A stretch of 56,706 bases of DNA from Eubacterium sp. Its GTDB lineage: Bacteria; Bacillota; Clostridia; Lachnospirales; Lachnospiraceae. Under the pieces are notes generated by a model. The model was not told the origin of the DNA. It did not search any database and worked only from the letters and a program-made list of their open reading frames with translations. The position numbers were made by a program, and so were the translations under genes. The stretch is taken from contig JAFUDC010000150.1 in assembly GCA_017459345.1 (NCBI GenBank), forward strand, positions 1 through 56,706, in the 5' to 3' direction. Position 1 is the first letter of the stretch; each line of letters opens with the position of its first letter. Shown in pieces: positions 22,782 through 29,034 of the stretch.

Positions 22782-22815
22782 AGGTGCCTCCGTATTATTT
22801 ATAAAAATCCTAGGA

Positions 22816-22844
22816 ATTATAGCACATATATATGTATTTATCAA
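22816..22844 (-). promoter_or_regulatory. Promoter of the ABC exporter genes
   Basis: On the minus strand TTGATA (22839-22844), 17-bp spacer, perfect TATAAT (22816-22821). Confidence 0.72.
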
Positions 22845-22866
22845 GATATGAAGTATGAATGATTTC

Positions 22867-22895
22867 TTTACATTTCCCCTCTTTTATACTATTAT
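22867..22895 (+). promoter_or_regulatory. Promoter of lgt
   Basis: On the plus strand TTTACA (22867-22872), 17-bp spacer, TATTAT (22890-22895). It points away from the exporter promoter and implies a ~120-base lgt leader. Confidence 0.55.
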
Positions 22896-23021
22896 CTTAT
22901 CAGTCTTCTTTAAATCTGAAGCCGTAGATTATGTCTATCCTGCTCACTCCAGTCATGGTTTTATATGTGCAGGGTTCTGAGCAGTTATGTTTATTCTATC
23001 TTTATTCCTGGAGGTATTACT

Positions 23022-23909
23022 ATGCAATATATGGATATCCGTTTCCCACATCTGGGCATCGTCCTGAATCATGTGGGAAGGTCTTTCTCCATCGGCTCCT
23101 TTGAGATCATGTTTTACGGTGTCGTGATTGCCTGCGCCTTTCTCCTGGGCATGATGATCGCCAGACTGGAGGCCAGGTCCACCGGCCAGGATCCGGAGCT
23201 TTACCTGGACTTTCTCCTCTGGCTGGTGATTCCGGCCATTTTGGGAGCCAGGGCTTACTATGTCATCTTATCCTGGGATTACTATGGAGCACATCCCGCC
23301 GAGATTCTGAATCTCCGCCATGGCGGCCTGGGAATCGTGGGAGGTGTGACCGCAGGCATCATCACCATCATCATTTTCTCCAGAGTCAGGAAGTACAGCG
23401 CCCTTTTGATGCTGGATACCGTCACCATGCCCATGCTGATCGGACAGATGCTGGGAAGATGGGGCAACTTCTTTAACCGGGAGGCCTTCGGAGGCTATAC
23501 AGACGGACCCCTGGCCATGCAGATTCCGGTGGGATACTTTGAGCAGACCGGCCGACTTTCGGAGATCCAGAATGCTGGATTGATGGATCATCTGGTCAAT
23601 CTCACCGTAAATGGCCAGGCCATCTCCTATATCCAGGTTCACCCCACCTTCCTCTACGAAGGCCTGTGGAACCTGATGGTTCTGCTCTTTATCTTCTTTT
23701 ACCGCAAGCATAAGCGCTTTAATGGGGAACTGTTATGTATCTATTTTATCGGATACGGAATCGGAAGATTTATGATTGAGAGTCTTCGAACCGACCAGCT
23801 CACCATCGGACACACCGGCATCGCCGCCACCCAGGTGGTCTGTGTACTGATCGTGATTGGGGGATTAATCGGGATTATTGCAGGAAGAAGAAAGAAAAGA
23901 AGGGCCTGA
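23022..23909 (+). CDS. lgt: Prolipoprotein diacylglyceryl transferase Lgt
   Basis: The membrane enzyme that attaches diacylglycerol to the lipobox cysteine of prolipoproteins, the first step for lipoproteins such as PotD and the zinc-binding protein in this window. The 295 residues contain about seven hydrophobic spans, the catalytic-region RHGGLGIVGG (99-108) and the Lgt signature GRWGNFFNREAFGG (145-158). The ATG at 23022 has GGAGGT 6 bases upstream. It stands alone on the plus strand, divergent from the exporter. Confidence 0.96.
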   Translation: MQYMDIRFPHLGIVLNHVGRSFSIGSFEIMFYGVVIACAFLLGMMIARLEARSTGQDPELYLDFLLWLVIPAILGARAYYVILSWDYYGAHPAEILNLRHGGLGIVGGVTAGIITIIIFSRVRKYSALLMLDTVTMPMLIGQMLGRWGNFFNREAFGGYTDGPLAMQIPVGYFEQTGRLSEIQNAGLMDHLVNLTVNGQAISYIQVHPTFLYEGLWNLMVLLFIFFYRKHKRFNGELLCIYFIGYGIGRFMIESLRTDQLTIGHTGIAATQVVCVLIVIGGLIGIIAGRRKKRRA

Positions 23910-23939
23910 AAAACTCGAACCGGATCATAAGTGCTTATC

Positions 23940-24070
23940 GGGCAGAATTAAGCCTAAAGCAGATATGATACTTTTTTGCTTGGCGGGCAAAATGAAGCCA
24001 ACGGCAGATATGATACTATTTTTGCTTGTCAGGCAGAATTAAGCCCAAAGCAGATATGATACTATTTTTA
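23940..24070. repeat. Three ~45-bp tandem repeats after lgt
   Basis: The core GCAGATATGATACT begins at 23959, 24004 and 24050, periods 45 and 46. Each core is followed by a T-run and preceded by a GGCA-type AAGCC segment. The third copy abuts the ~230-bp repeat element. Confidence 0.9.
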
Positions 24071-24073
24071 TCG

Positions 24074-24304
24074 TTCGGTCAGAGTACGGGGAGATACAAA
24101 AGTGTTTCCGACGCAGGTATTATCCACTTTATTTGATAATAATGGACAGTTCGCTATTTTTATCCACCTGATTTGGTGAAAGTTGAGCAAAATCGCAAAG
24201 AACACTTGAAATTGGTAGATACAATCTGCCAGGACTAAGTGTTTTATCGTGAATCTACGATAAAATAGTGTGGAAAACATGATTGTATCTCCCACATCTC
24301 CAAA
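24074..24304. repeat. Repeat element copy 1 (MITE-like, ~230 bp)
   Basis: It is nearly identical to 25869-26099 in the same orientation, at a constant offset of 1795 bases. The ends carry GGGAGATACAA (24089-24099) and its complement TTGTATCTCCC (24283-24293), like terminal inverted repeats. Inside is a perfect 9-bp stem TTTTATCGT/ACGATAAAA. It has no transposase. A miniature inverted-repeat transposable element is the best fit; an insertion-sequence remnant is possible. Confidence 0.75.
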
Positions 24305-24433
24305 GGAAGCTATTCTTTGAGAAATTCACATATCATTCTACTCCAATAAAGTTCATACCTCTGGGCATATTTTTTTCCAATGTTATCTTTTTCAATATAT
24401 TTCAATCTATATTCAAATCGGAATCATTTTGAT

Positions 24434-24535
24434 GATTCCGCGCGAGTTGCGCAGCGCGTATGCGCTTTCCTTTGCGCACAGCATGCAATGCTCGGCGCAT
24501 CGCTTTGCACGCTAAGGCGTCTGCGATGCGCCGTA
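24434..24535. repeat. GC-rich palindromic block
   Basis: A dense run of GCGC-containing palindromes lies inside an otherwise AT-rich gap. It includes a perfect 10-bp pair GGCGCATCGC (24494-24503) with GCGATGCGCC (24523-24532). Its left part follows the same base pattern as the ftsZ leader element. Confidence 0.7.
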
Positions 24536-24538
24536 GGC

Positions 24539-24625
24539 TACATCAGATGGAGATTGTGACTCCACCTGATGGAAGCGAACTTTCTCCCCATTATAGAAGA
24601 GGGAGTCACATTTGAATCTGATGTA
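24539..24625. repeat. Small inverted-repeat element
   Basis: The left arm TACATCAGAT...TGTGACTCC (24539-24563) is mirrored by the complement at 24601-24625. The arms match at about 19 of 25 positions. It directly follows the GC-rich block. Confidence 0.6.
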
Positions 24626-24835
24626 ATACTGCTCTAATCTCTGTACAGCCTCACAATTATTCCTACATTTCTAAATTTAGCCTGCCCTGCAATACCTTCT
24701 GTCTCACCCTCTCCTATACCATCAGGATTATTCTAATATACTTGGTAATTATTTATATTATTATTTTCTATTTACATTATTGTTATTTTATGGTATTCTT
24801 CAGATGTTGTTAATTTTAATATATAGGAGGTGCCT

Positions 24836-25597
24836 ATGAATAGAGCTATTTTGAAAAATAATATCACATCAGAAAAGCAAATGCTTATTAGATGCAAGAA
24901 TAATCTCAAGGGGCTTCCAAAGGGAAGTTTGTCCTGCTATAAAAAAGGGAAACATCTGTACTTTAAAAAATACGACAAAAACAAGCAGGTTTATGTAGGA
25001 GGGGAAGATGAAAGGATAGTTTCCCTATTGAAAAAGAGACATATGCTGGAGATTATGATCAGTACCCTGGAAACGAATATCGAATTGATGGAAAAGCTTT
25101 ATGCCGGTTATAAGGAATTTGATCCGGCAATACTGGAAAGAAGATTCACAAGAGCTTATCAGAATATTCCTCAGGATCTGATCAGAGAGCTTGGCTACTC
25201 TGTCAAAACAAAAAGGCAGTCTTTCTATGAAGATCAAAAGATATACAAAACCTCTGCAGGGATTGATGTACGATCAAGAATAGAAGCATTAATTGCAGAG
25301 ATATATACAAAAAAGGGGATTAGCTTTGATTATGAAGCTGCAATAAAGCTTCCTGATGGAAGCCTCCTGCATCCCGATTTCACTGTCTATTGTCCATCCT
25401 GCAATAAGCATAAGTATCATGAACATATCGGATTATTATCTGATCCTGATTATATGAAAAGTTATCTATGGAAGCTGGAAAGATATATTGCCAATGACCT
25501 GTATCCGTATTATGATGTTTTGTTCACTTATGAAAAGCCAGACCATGGCATCGATATGAATGAGATAGAGTATCTGATAGATGCATTTATGAAGTGA
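24836..25597 (+). CDS. Unrecognised protein, possible PD-(D/E)XK-type nuclease
   Basis: A 253-residue protein I cannot name. Residues about 1-95 are basic, with a hairpin-like GSLSCYKKGKHLYFKKY and then a charged helix. Residues about 145-235 resemble a restriction-endonuclease-like core: Glu in RSRIEALIAEIY (E150), then LLHPDF (D181), then YHEHIG (E196), then an Arg/Lys helix. A CPSC pair (C186, C189) lies between the last two acidic residues. The C-terminus is acidic. The ATG has AGGAGG 5 bases upstream; a GTG inside that site is not the start. The gene is clearly AT-richer than its neighbours and lies between two direct repeats, which suggests acquisition. The nuclease call is inference. 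Confidence 0.6.
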   Translation: MNRAILKNNITSEKQMLIRCKNNLKGLPKGSLSCYKKGKHLYFKKYDKNKQVYVGGEDERIVSLLKKRHMLEIMISTLETNIELMEKLYAGYKEFDPAILERRFTRAYQNIPQDLIRELGYSVKTKRQSFYEDQKIYKTSAGIDVRSRIEALIAEIYTKKGISFDYEAAIKLPDGSLLHPDFTVYCPSCNKHKYHEHIGLLSDPDYMKSYLWKLERYIANDLYPYYDVLFTYEKPDHGIDMNEIEYLIDAFMK

Positions 25598-25679
25598 TGG
25601 TTTTTGTTTCTGGAGGGGTGTTTACAATCATAATATTAGGATCATGAACACTCTGGCGTTTCTGGAGCCGGATTATGGA

Positions 25680-25742
25680 GGGCGTCGCAGTAATAATCTG
25701 CCCATTCAGTTAAGAATGGGCAGTTCAGTTACTGCGACGCCC
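25680..25742. terminator. Large two-part hairpin downstream of the nuclease-like gene
   Basis: A 14-bp outer stem GGGCGTCGCAGTAA (25680-25693 with 25729-25742) encloses a 10-bp inner stem CTGCCCATTC (25698-25707 with 25714-25723). Small unpaired strands separate them. No strict T-run follows, only CCTTTTCT, so it may be a terminator or some other structured element. Confidence 0.5.
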
Positions 25743-25868
25743 CCAGCCTTTTCTAATATAATTCCAACCCGAATCCATGCACCTTGCTTTTCACTCCTGT
25801 CAGTTCCCATGTGGTCCATCGGGCCATTTTCTCCTGCAAAGCATATTTAAAGTTTTGAATTTCAATCC

Positions 25869-26099
25869 TTCGGTCAGAGTACGGGGAGATACAAAAGTGT
25901 TTCCGATGCAGGTATTATCCACTTTATTTGATAATAATGGACAGTTCGCTATTATTATCCACCTGATTTGGTGAAAGTTGAGCAAAACCGCCAAGAACAC
26001 TTGAATTTGGTAGATATAATCTGCCAGGACTAAGTGTTTTATCGTGAATCTACGATAATTCAGAAGAAAGAACAGAATCATATCTCCCATATCTCCAGA
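25869..26099. repeat. Repeat element copy 2 (MITE-like, ~230 bp)
   Basis: The direct copy of 24074-24304. The left end GGGAGATACAA (25884-25894) is intact, while the right partner reads TCATATCTCCC with two changes. Divergence is concentrated in the last 45 bases. The internal TTTTATCGT stem is partly kept. Confidence 0.75.
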
Positions 26100-26165
26100 G
26101 AAAGGGTAAAGTCCTTATAATAGTGTAAATTGAAAGACAGGTTTCTGTTCAGGAGGAAAGCCAAC

Positions 26166-26217
26166 TTACATCAGCAGCGATATCATCTTAGTTACATCAG
26201 CGGCGATATCATCTTAG
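26166..26217. repeat. 26-bp tandem duplication at the cls stop codon
   Basis: Two adjacent 26-bp units (26166-26191 and 26192-26217) differ at one base. The second unit encodes the last codons and stop of cls on the minus strand, so the stop region is duplicated downstream. Confidence 0.88.
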
Positions 26218-27763
26218 CCAATCCTCCCATGAGCTTATAAGACATTTTCTCCTTTTTGATGGTCTCACTGGTGACCTGTCTGCACTTGGCAAAAGTCTCC
26301 TGAAAATCCTTCTCAATGTCAGCGATGCAGTCTGTCCGGTAAAGATAGGTTGCACACTCAAAATGATGATAGAGGCTCCTGTAATCGAGATTGATGGTTC
26401 CCACAACAGCCCTGATGTCATCACTGACGAATACCTTGGCATGAACGAATCCCGGCGTGTATTCATAGAGTTTTACACCGGAATCATGCAGCGCTTTGTA
26501 ATGGGTCTTGGCAAGAGCATATGCCAGCTTTTTATCCGGTATGCCCGGCAGAATCAGTTTTACATCCACTCCCCTCTGGGCTGCAAAGCACAGGGCTGTC
26601 TCCAGTTCGTCATCTAATATCAGGTAGGGTGTCATGATATGGACATAATCTGTTGCACGGTAGAGGATATCCATATAGATGGCTTCCCCGGCCTTGTACT
26701 TGTCTAAGGGGCTGTCACAGTAGGGTAGGACATAGCCAGCTGCGGAAGTTACCTGATTATCAGGCAGAGACAGCCATCTGTCATAGTCTGCTGTATCCGA
26801 TCCGATGGACCACATCTGAAGGAACATCAGGGTAAAGCTCCTGGCTGCCGGGCCTTTGATCATGAGGGCGGTATCCTTCCAGTGGCCAAACCTTTCAATG
26901 CGGTTGATATATTCATCTGCCAGATTGACTCCCCCATTAAATGCCACCTTGCCGTCTATGACGAGGATCTTACGATGGTCACGGTAGTTGTAATGGGAGG
27001 AAACGACAGGTTTTATGGGGGAGAATGCCTTGGCATGGATTCCCTGCGCTTTGAGCAGCTTCCAGTAATTGACCGGAAGAGTGGACATCTCGCACATGCC
27101 GTCATACATGACACGGACCTCGACGCCGGCCTGAGCCTTGCGAATCAGGATATCAAGGATACGCCCCCACATATACCCTTCTTCTATGATGAAGTACTCC
27201 ATGAATATGTACTGCTCCGCCTTCTCCAGCTCCTCAAGCATGGCCTCAAATTTCTTCTCACCCAGGGGAAAGTAGGTCACCTGGGTATGGTCATAGACCG
27301 GAAAACAGCCTGTATGGTTCAGATATCTGCTGATATCATCAAGGCCCGACCCATCATGCTCTATCTCTTTCAGCACGTTCTCTGCCTGAGAAAGTAAGGT
27401 TCGGGTATCATCAATCTGCTTTTTTACAAGCCTGGTCTCCAGGCGGTGTCCGATATTGGACTGGGTCCACAAAAGCATGATGGCTCCAGGAATGGGAAGG
27501 ATGGCAATAATCAGCATCCAGGTGAGCTTGGCAGAGGAATCCATGCTGCTGTTGAACAGGTAAATGATCATCAGGAATGTGAATATCCACTGTAAATGCA
27601 GGAGAACCGGCAGCCTCTCCGTAAAATGCAGATAAGTCAGCACCATGATGACAACCTGTGCCACCAGCAGGACTGCAATCACGAAAAATCTGCTGAATAT
27701 GAGCCGCATGATTCCCTTCTTCACCGGCCTGGCAAGATTGACGGTTCTTACTTCATGATCCAT
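26192..27763 (-). CDS. cls: Cardiolipin synthase, phospholipase D family
   Basis: A membrane enzyme that condenses two phosphatidylglycerol molecules to cardiolipin and glycerol. The 523 residues have two to three N-terminal spans (about 22-100) and two HKD motifs: HRKILVID beginning at residue 263 and HAKVFVSD at 441. The rest matches bacterial Cls in length and layout. GGGAGG lies 6 bases before the ATG. The last codons overlap the 26-bp tandem duplication. No functional partner is adjacent. Confidence 0.93.
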   Translation of the reverse strand: MDHEVRTVNLARPVKKGIMRLIFSRFFVIAVLLVAQVVIMVLTYLHFTERLPVLLHLQWIFTFLMIIYLFNSSMDSSAKLTWMLIIAILPIPGAIMLLWTQSNIGHRLETRLVKKQIDDTRTLLSQAENVLKEIEHDGSGLDDISRYLNHTGCFPVYDHTQVTYFPLGEKKFEAMLEELEKAEQYIFMEYFIIEEGYMWGRILDILIRKAQAGVEVRVMYDGMCEMSTLPVNYWKLLKAQGIHAKAFSPIKPVVSSHYNYRDHRKILVIDGKVAFNGGVNLADEYINRIERFGHWKDTALMIKGPAARSFTLMFLQMWSIGSDTADYDRWLSLPDNQVTSAAGYVLPYCDSPLDKYKAGEAIYMDILYRATDYVHIMTPYLILDDELETALCFAAQRGVDVKLILPGIPDKKLAYALAKTHYKALHDSGVKLYEYTPGFVHAKVFVSDDIRAVVGTINLDYRSLYHHFECATYLYRTDCIADIEKDFQETFAKCRQVTSETIKKEKMSYKLMGGLAKMISPLM

Positions 27764-27954
27764 AGATTACCTCCCATTTTTAACATAGTTTTCTTCTTCG
27801 ATATCTTATAACTCCAGATGAAAAAAAGTGCCCTGTCATATCTGGCAGTCAACGCATTTGCTGCCCATCGAATGTTTGTACAGTAGCATGAACTGTTTTT
27901 TCTTTTTATATCCGGCATTAATTATTTCCTCTCATATGGCATCACTTCAATATA

Positions 27955-28305
27955 TCAGATAATATCATAGTACTCCATTGCCTTATATATTCCGTCCTGG
28001 TTAATATCGGCTGTGACATATCCTGCAATCTCCTTTACAGAATCATAGCCATTGCCCATGCAGATGCTGTTTCCTGCATAATTCATCATCTCAACATCAT
28101 TAGGGCTGTCACCAAATACATAACACTCCTCAGGAGAAAAGTCAAAATAATCTGTCAGATACGCAATAGCAGTGGCTTTGGTGAATGGAAGAGGCAGGAT
28201 TTCTATGAACCCGTTTCCGTTCTCAATCAGGTGATAGTCTTTCATAGCATCTCTGAAGTCCTCTGCTTTCCTTTCGTCCGTGTAAAATGTGGTTAGCTTA
28301 TTCAC
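27955..28305 (-). pseudogene. N-terminally truncated HAD-family (Cof-type) phosphatase
   Basis: A 116-residue frame matching only the C-terminal half of Cof-type HAD-IIB phosphatases: the end of the cap domain, the FTKATAIAYL lysine motif and GDSPNDVEMMNYAG, which binds Mg. The N-terminal DxD nucleophile domain is missing. Full-length relatives have about 270 residues. Upstream of the GTG there is an in-frame TAG within 15 bases and no good ribosome binding site. It is best read as a decayed gene. Confidence 0.8.
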
Positions 28306-28392
28306 TTTTGAAAAATAATTCGAAAACTATATAATTTCTGCACGCACGATTCCGCCGAATCACTTTTTCACTTCACGGGTGCGCCCTCCTAA

Positions 28393-29034
28393 TCATCTGT
28401 TTTTTAACAGTTCTCCCAGAACCTCAAGCTCATCCTCCGGGATATCGGACACCGGCCCGATCTCTCTTGTCAGATGATAAATCTTTAAGACCTCCTCCGC
28501 TGCCTCCACCAGTTTGCAGGCATCCTCCAGGGTTTTCCCCACAGCCGCGCAGCCGTGGTTGGCAAGAAGAACCAGGTCATGATCTTTTAAAGCTTCCTCA
28601 ATTCCATCAAAGATGTGGACTGTTCCCGGTCTACCGTAGGGCAGGCAGGGGATCTCCCCGAATAACATGGCAAATGTGGTGGAGCACTTTAGTTTAATAT
28701 CCTTGCCGCAGTAGGCGTAGGCCGTTAGATAGGGGGCGTGGATGTGGGCTACCGCATTGCAGTCCGGTCTGGCAGCCAGTGCTGCCAGGTGGAGACGGTA
28801 TTCGCTGGATGCCTTATACTCCCCTTCTACCTGCTTCTCATTATTATCCAAGACCGCAACGGTTTCCTCGGTAAGAAATCTTTTCCGCCTTCCTGAGGGG
28901 GTGATATAGAGCCTCCCTGTGCTGCGATCCAGCACAGACAGATTCCCCTCCACCGAGTTGACCAAACCTTTTTCATCCATCATTTTGGCATAGAGTACGA
29001 CTTCGTTTTTAAAATCTTTTGCTTCCTTTCCCAT
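28393..29034 (-). CDS. Class II aldolase/adducin family protein
   Basis: A 213-residue zinc-dependent aldolase of the L-fuculose-phosphate/L-ribulose-5-phosphate 4-epimerase family. Visible motifs are NLSVLDRSTGRLYITPSG, the SSEYRLH catalytic region, zinc ligands in HIHAPY and the third histidine in ANHGCAAVGKTLEDA. The sugar substrate cannot be assigned because no sugar pathway genes are near. A short GATTC-CGCC-GAATC palindrome lies downstream at 28349-28362. Confidence 0.85.
   Translation of the reverse strand: MGKEAKDFKNEVVLYAKMMDEKGLVNSVEGNLSVLDRSTGRLYITPSGRRKRFLTEETVAVLDNNEKQVEGEYKASSEYRLHLAALAARPDCNAVAHIHAPYLTAYAYCGKDIKLKCSTTFAMLFGEIPCLPYGRPGTVHIFDGIEEALKDHDLVLLANHGCAAVGKTLEDACKLVEAAEEVLKIYHLTREIGPVSDIPEDELEVLGELLKNR

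Follow-up and report, generated by a model that had tools for sequence, protein, structure and literature searches.

What a lone nuclease gene is doing between two long direct repeats is the question raised by a 56,706-nt stretch of DNA from Eubacterium sp., a gut bacterium belonging to the Lachnospiraceae, referred to here as the window (contig C126 of a 2.96 Mb genome in 188 contigs, labelled G000). A repeat search of the window places two 246-nt copies at 24064-24309 (A) and 25859-26104 (B), both on the forward strand, with 90% identity and an offset of 1795, as an earlier note on this DNA had described. That note had also seen an AT-rich gene alone between them; indeed, the sole open reading frame (ORF) of more than 100 amino acids (aa) between A and B, both strands considered, is that at 24830/24836-25597 (255/253 aa), and the nuclease gene at 24836-25597 has a GC content of 36%, against 50% for the window. 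The best explanation, which we favour tentatively and at somewhat less than even confidence, is that the repeats are copies of a lineage-restricted, non-autonomous element resembling a miniature inverted-repeat transposable element (MITE), and that pairs of them are cassettes resembling composite MITEs, whose movement we infer.

The element and its distribution

Each repeat contains a core element of 223 bp (24081-24303 in A and 25876-26098 in B, both plus strand). Its length is 222-225 bp in all 19 strong copies, and 12 representative copies, which on average are 64 substitutions and 8.6 gap events apart per pair, vary in length with a standard deviation of less than 1 bp. In the arm consensus each arm carries the terminal repeat GGAGTtctGGGAGATacAA, about 20 bp further on the 20-bp palindrome TTATC-N10-GATAA and, after another 20 bp or so, the half site TTATCtACC; in A and B, site starts lie 40, 55 and 80 in from the left end, and 41 and 56 in from the right. 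In copy A the left terminal inverted repeat occupies 24081-24099 (plus strand), with its right partner at about 24285-24303 (25876-25894 and 26080-26098 in B). The left palindrome lies at 24120-24139 (25915-25934 in B) and the right one at 24244-24263 (26039-26058 in B), where A and B cease to be closely alike. The inner half site TTATCCAC is found at 24160-24167 (plus strand; 25955-25962 in B), its start 40 bp past that of the left palindrome, and its mirror partner GGTAGATA, with a position read from the sequence, at 24215-24222 (minus strand; 26010-26017 in B).

The symmetry of the element looks more like a conservation of sites, such as a DNA-binding protein might use, than like that of a co-varying hairpin, since in the variable columns arms within a copy and arms from different copies are alike to the same degree (0.307 in both cases; permutation p 0.50). 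As a single strand the element folds strongly (z -6.2). An RNA element was considered and rejected: Rfam gave no match in 22800-29000 at expectation values (E) up to 1, and RNAalifold gave 29 pairs, three of them with changes on both sides, the arms of the same copy being without covariation.

A DNA search of G000 with copy A returned both copies and three partial matches, and the inner palindrome pattern returned 17 matches at 16 places (control 0). A covariance model built from 16 aligned copies gave 46 matches in this genome, corresponding to about 23 loci matched on both strands each (19 strong and four weaker), a dispersal that supports a mobile-element type of repeat. The pattern of one end gave 35 matches (control 0), 34 of them within 18 full-length elements and one, on contig C115, unpaired. 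The A/B pair is more than a product of chance, because the 223-bp element recurs at these many loci and because a sample of 217 kb of G000, drawn without regard to repeats, holds a single direct pair of comparable size, and that one is coding.

Beyond its own genome the element is scarce. A pattern of two palindromes 92-122 bp apart gave, among 145 genomes, 20 matches in G000 (that on C11 unrelated), two in the congener G015 and one each in nine other genomes; as the control pattern also matched in six genomes, G000 and G015 alone stand out. Among 23 congeners the covariance model matches G015 alone, weakly (E 7e-4), and among 397 genomes of the family G000 alone, under stricter filters and with five candidates scored per genome, so that weak relatives could be missed there. 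The element DNA has no match in the phage or plasmid collections searched, and the pattern of its ends matches 18 viral contigs. Within the window itself, positions 160-341 match the model weakly (model positions 23-206, E 0.022), perhaps as a member of another subfamily.

Several of the features by which MITEs are recognised are present: a size below 500 bp (222-225 bp), terminal inverted repeats in arms that can be aligned, no transposase gene, and a dispersed, multi-copy, AT-rich (GC 0.28-0.37 in the 19 strong copies) and intergenic occurrence. One of the 24 element places examined overlaps a mechanically called ORF, and the neighbouring genes are tandem, divergent or otherwise oriented. 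Mobilisation by a Y1/RAYT-type transposase was considered and rejected: G000 has one Y1_Tnp gene (C134, a 153-aa frame), G004 a partial one and G015 none, and the gene on C134 stands beside a TnpB-like frame and is, judged by inspection, presumably IS200/605-like. An intergenic unit of about 1.36 kb elsewhere in G000 (contig C2, L171:7513-8874) has 50-bp inverted ends (94%) and holds two element copies of different subfamilies; related stretches occur on C1, C31, C74, C127 and C158, and several of these contigs end nearby.

The nuclease gene

The gene enclosed by the copies (24836-25597, plus strand) encodes a stand-alone PD-(D/E)XK-type nuclease of 253 aa, the first impression of a nuclease-like gene being supported by the match in sequence and by the predicted fold. 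In the predicted layout an N-terminal helix, three strands and a long helix precede a C-terminal nuclease domain at about 135-253, which matches the C-terminal part of the PADLOC candidate PDC-S68 (E 2.8e-24). The structure model has a mean predicted local distance difference test score (pLDDT) of 80.5 and a predicted template modelling score (pTM) of 0.49. In it, residues of about 131-253 match the nuclease domains of the homing endonuclease I-Bth0305I, Bax1, TnsA and Vsr, structures that belong to the PD-(D/E)XK superfamily; the comparison was made by VIA-align, as a second look, and does not exclude families missing from its list. E150, D181 and H197 are invariant across 20 aligned family members. 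The predicted core fold and the conserved acidic residues are those that define the superfamily, in which the protein, as modelled, finds its place.

Both likenesses have clear bounds. That to PDC-S68 is in the sequence of the nuclease domain, whereas the models of this candidate span about 1200-1270 positions and the window protein stands alone, is matched by the C-terminal part only and lacks the large multi-domain build. That to I-Bth0305I, Bax1, TnsA and Vsr is one of predicted fold only, and unlike the situation of a homing endonuclease such as I-Bth0305I, no intron or intein is seen at the window locus.

No match to the protein was found in Pfam or NCBIfam at E up to 10, PHROGs gave weak matches at most (best E 0.0037), and none of the four matches in a PDB sequence search is credible. 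The nearest named records are three loci in metagenome-assembled genomes of uncultured Lachnospiraceae, records of the own genome possibly being omitted. A phage or plasmid origin was considered and rejected, the protein matches being weak and partial (three phage and seven plasmid records). The nine viral-contig relatives of query A2 end in large proteins of 723-1332 aa, some of them cut by contig ends, and the viral scan with query A1 found none. Two homologues in other genomes have features of their own: that of G004 (contig C5, L202:7860-8371) lies in two frames, as pieces of 72% and 49%, and is a probable pseudogene, and in G014 (C208) a 78-nt repeat stands twice in tandem (94%), together with a palindrome, at L201:5447-5651, just upstream of the homologue.

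Paired copies as candidate cassettes

The idea that direct pairs like that of the window occur elsewhere was confirmed at two loci of G015. On contig C80 the copies (2536-2835 and 4697-4996 of L198; 92%, offset 2161) enclose a helix-turn-helix gene (PF01381) and a HipA gene (PF13657, PF07804), which together make a hipBA operon. On C33 a direct pair of 268 bp with 84% identity brackets a homologue of the nuclease; the repeat differs in sequence and has TTTTGCNAC sites, and the spacing from first to inner site is again 40-41 bp in both arms. Elsewhere in the sampled sequence of G015 the C33 type recurs once in full (L243, 72%) and twice in part (L243 and L253). In the window, on C33 and on C80, two element copies thus bound a cargo, as in composite MITEs. 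The ends of the element flanking hipBA (L198:2520-2892) contain a widespread motif, GGAGACAGAGAACCGTCCCCTGTCTCC, resembling repetitive extragenic palindromes, with 41 matches in G004, several of them as inverted pairs.

Control pairs were defined as direct, of at least 120 bp and at least 75% identity, and 0.5-5 kb apart. In 419 kb of G015 three were found, namely C33, C80 and L255, the last of which was dismissed as presumably consisting of tRNA-like genes, by inspection and with no dedicated tRNA search. The 380 kb of G015 picked without regard to repeats (19 stretches) gave no direct pair. In G000, 311 kb gave the window's own pair, and the 217 kb repeat-blind sample gave one (L264), dismissed as a repeat within the coding sequences of two neighbouring proteins; the 597 kb sampled blind to repeats in the two genomes hold no non-coding, non-tRNA direct pair.

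Flanking pairs were also counted at 27 nuclease-family loci with at least 60 bp on both sides (at least 1 kb at 19 of these), two loci with too short a flank and a fragment of the broken gene in G004 having been left out, and at 17 of 25 lgt loci with full flanks as a control. Within the subfamily of the window protein, two of four loci have a flanking pair against none of 17 (p 0.03), or two of five if the broken G004 copy is included (p 0.04). Element and nuclease subfamily co-occur in 2/2 against 2/59 (p 0.003; p 0.05 without the discovery genome), with a subfamily cut set after the fact. In all these counts the numbers are small, and some of the cases were turned up by looking for them. 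No flanking direct repeats were found at the nuclease loci of G014, G004 and G015 C12, the last with its left flank missing.

The paired copies had been called almost identical, and this holds for most of their length but fails in a short subterminal stretch on the right. The mismatches between A and B number 9 of 200 at 24064-24263, 13 of 24 at 24264-24287 and three of 22 at 24288-24309 (Fisher 2e-9, first against second). In the stretch 24264-24287, the mosaic end, A and B are 46% alike, against at least 75% in 21 other copy pairs of more than 85% identity, all from one subgroup. The C80 copies are likewise identical over more than 200 bp up to one end and diverged in the other arm, so that two of the three direct pairs are mosaic in one arm. 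To judge from the sequences, such a pattern could come from gene conversion as well as from recombination close to the palindrome, and is proof of neither.

Under the explanation favoured here, the two arms of the element would carry mirrored putative protein-binding sites, that is, the terminal repeat, the 20-bp palindrome about 40 bp in and the half site about 40 bp further, on which a DNA-cleaving or DNA-joining protein might act. Two neighbouring elements and the DNA between them could then behave as a composite-MITE-like cassette, and RecA-dependent gene conversion may maintain the likeness of paired copies along the greater part of their length. If the direct copies recombined with each other, the gene could be lost and an element left standing alone, as is usual in this genome; such a loss is plausible.

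Several observations weigh against this explanation. The gain of a cassette by transposition, as the earlier note had proposed, was not supported, neither a target duplication nor a transposase nor an empty site having been found: none of the 13 copies whose flanks were examined one by one has a target-site duplication at a fixed boundary, no transposase or autonomous copy with the element ends was seen with the one-end pattern in the 188-contig assembly, and the lone Y1 transposase gene of G000 lies about 9 kb from one element copy with no visible link. Over the whole nuclease family, flanking repeats on both sides occur at two of 27 loci (the window and G015 C33) against none of 17 lgt loci, which is not significant (p 0.51), and without the window the subfamily count falls to one of three (p 0.16), or one of four with G004 (p 0.20), against none of 16. 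The other three nuclease paralogues of G000 have no flanking pair, one of them with only 483 bp on one side, and the repeat-blind stretches of G015, taken from its longest contigs, may be poorer in repeats. The nuclease homologue of G014 (48%) stands in convergent orientation to an aldolase gene that shares 72% identity with the one further downstream in the window (28393-29034), which suggests that the nuclease gene may be an old resident that preceded the elements here and was bracketed later.

Such an age would suit the strongest competing explanation, which is possible although clearly less likely, that a long-resident nuclease gene, lying in a spacer rich in repeats, received a MITE-like element on either side in independent insertions and that gene conversion later made the two alike, so that the pair is a coincidence and no unit. 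The spacer does hold other repeat families (23932-24068, about 24410-24626 and 25676-25742), nuclease and aldolase are syntenic in G014, and mosaic likeness is expected from gene conversion between neighbours. Coincidence accords poorly, however, with two more direct pairs in G015, one of them round a nuclease homologue, and with the lack of non-coding, non-tRNA pairs in the repeat-blind sample. A role in the host, as a selected chromosomal site (in the nucleoid, segregation or transcription control) or as a structured RNA, with the nuclease nearby incidentally, would account for a length and site spacing fixed across diverged copies, for intergenic positions in mixed gene contexts and for the strong single-strand fold. 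The absence of the element from nearly all congeners, the scant covariation (none between arms) and the failure of Rfam to match nevertheless make such a role very unlikely.

The nuclease might also be the agent itself. In a homing-like cassette it would cut solo elements, and repair from a paired copy would insert element, gene and element; nuclease and element families would co-evolve, and hipBA would ride in trans. We regard this as improbable. A trifle less probable again is a homing-type system in which nucleases resembling homing endonucleases would go with matched mirror-symmetric elements, each lineage recognising its own motif (TTATCNAC or TTTTGCNAC) in a shared 40-bp layout; the nuclease, or passengers such as hipBA, would travel between solo elements in direct pairs. 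A match in fold says nothing of function, however, and unrelated coiled coils score up to 8.3 with the N-terminal half; large candidate defence proteins carry this nuclease domain at their end, and no direct pair flanks the 61%-identical paralogue on C98, the G014 homologue or 22 more distant members.

Relation to known systems and surroundings of the locus

If the repeats are MITE-like, as we prefer to read them, their closest counterparts are bacterial MITEs such as Chunjie and QMITE which, as reviewed in PMC10969869, are likewise shorter than 500 bp and AT-rich, have terminal inverted repeats but no gene, and lie between genes in many copies. The review describes wide variation in length, partial copies and target-site direct repeats that fade with age, whereas in the present element no target duplication was found and no autonomous partner seen, the internal sites are mirrored at fixed spacing and no truncated copy was seen with the end pattern. 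The window pair resembles TIME-COMP in that two miniature elements enclose a cargo, a size of 1-2 kb and direct orientation being among the forms given in PMC13367494, where these units are described as derived from the Tn3 family, mainly plasmid-borne, carrying resistance genes and mostly having flanking direct repeats. The pairs described here are instead chromosomal and have a nuclease or a toxin-antitoxin cargo, with no flanking duplication seen in the per-copy flanks. The ends of the element presumably do not resemble Tn3 ends.

At a minimum, these data describe a length-constrained, symmetric repeat family, which was not found in the literature searched (preprints and most subscription papers being outside its scope). 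If the pairs are real cassettes, they would represent a compact means of gain and loss of single defence-like genes in gut bacteria, by a unit without a transposase. Should the nuclease act on the elements, homing as a principle would also cover miniature elements and genes that stand alone, and could be put to a direct test through the matched families of motifs.

Upstream of copy A lies a gene that we take to be lgt, and downstream of copy B, on the other strand, one that is presumably cls-like, both named from the earlier note and from our own recognition of the frames; they are 2.3 kb apart. That relatives would not share this arrangement was borne out as far as the gene order goes, the window's being the only one of 25 lgt loci, from 23 genomes, to have the nuclease next to it (flanks of at most 1.5 kb, some cut by contig ends), and with regard to the elements is qualified by the weak match in one of 23 congeners. 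The closest lgt outside G000 is 77% identical, and no cls match occurs within at most 1.5 kb around the 24 other lgt loci.

Between lgt and copy A, a 46-nt repeat stands three times in tandem (23932-24068; 83-91% identity). A GC-rich palindromic repeat lies between copy A and the nuclease gene (24410-24626), with relatives at L180, L182, L178 and L183, and a hairpin, GGGCGTCGCAGTAA..TTACTGCGACGCCC, at 25676-25742 has relatives at L174 and L182. Further downstream, a 116-aa ORF (27955-28305) looks to us like what is left of the C-terminal part of a once longer gene of the HAD type.
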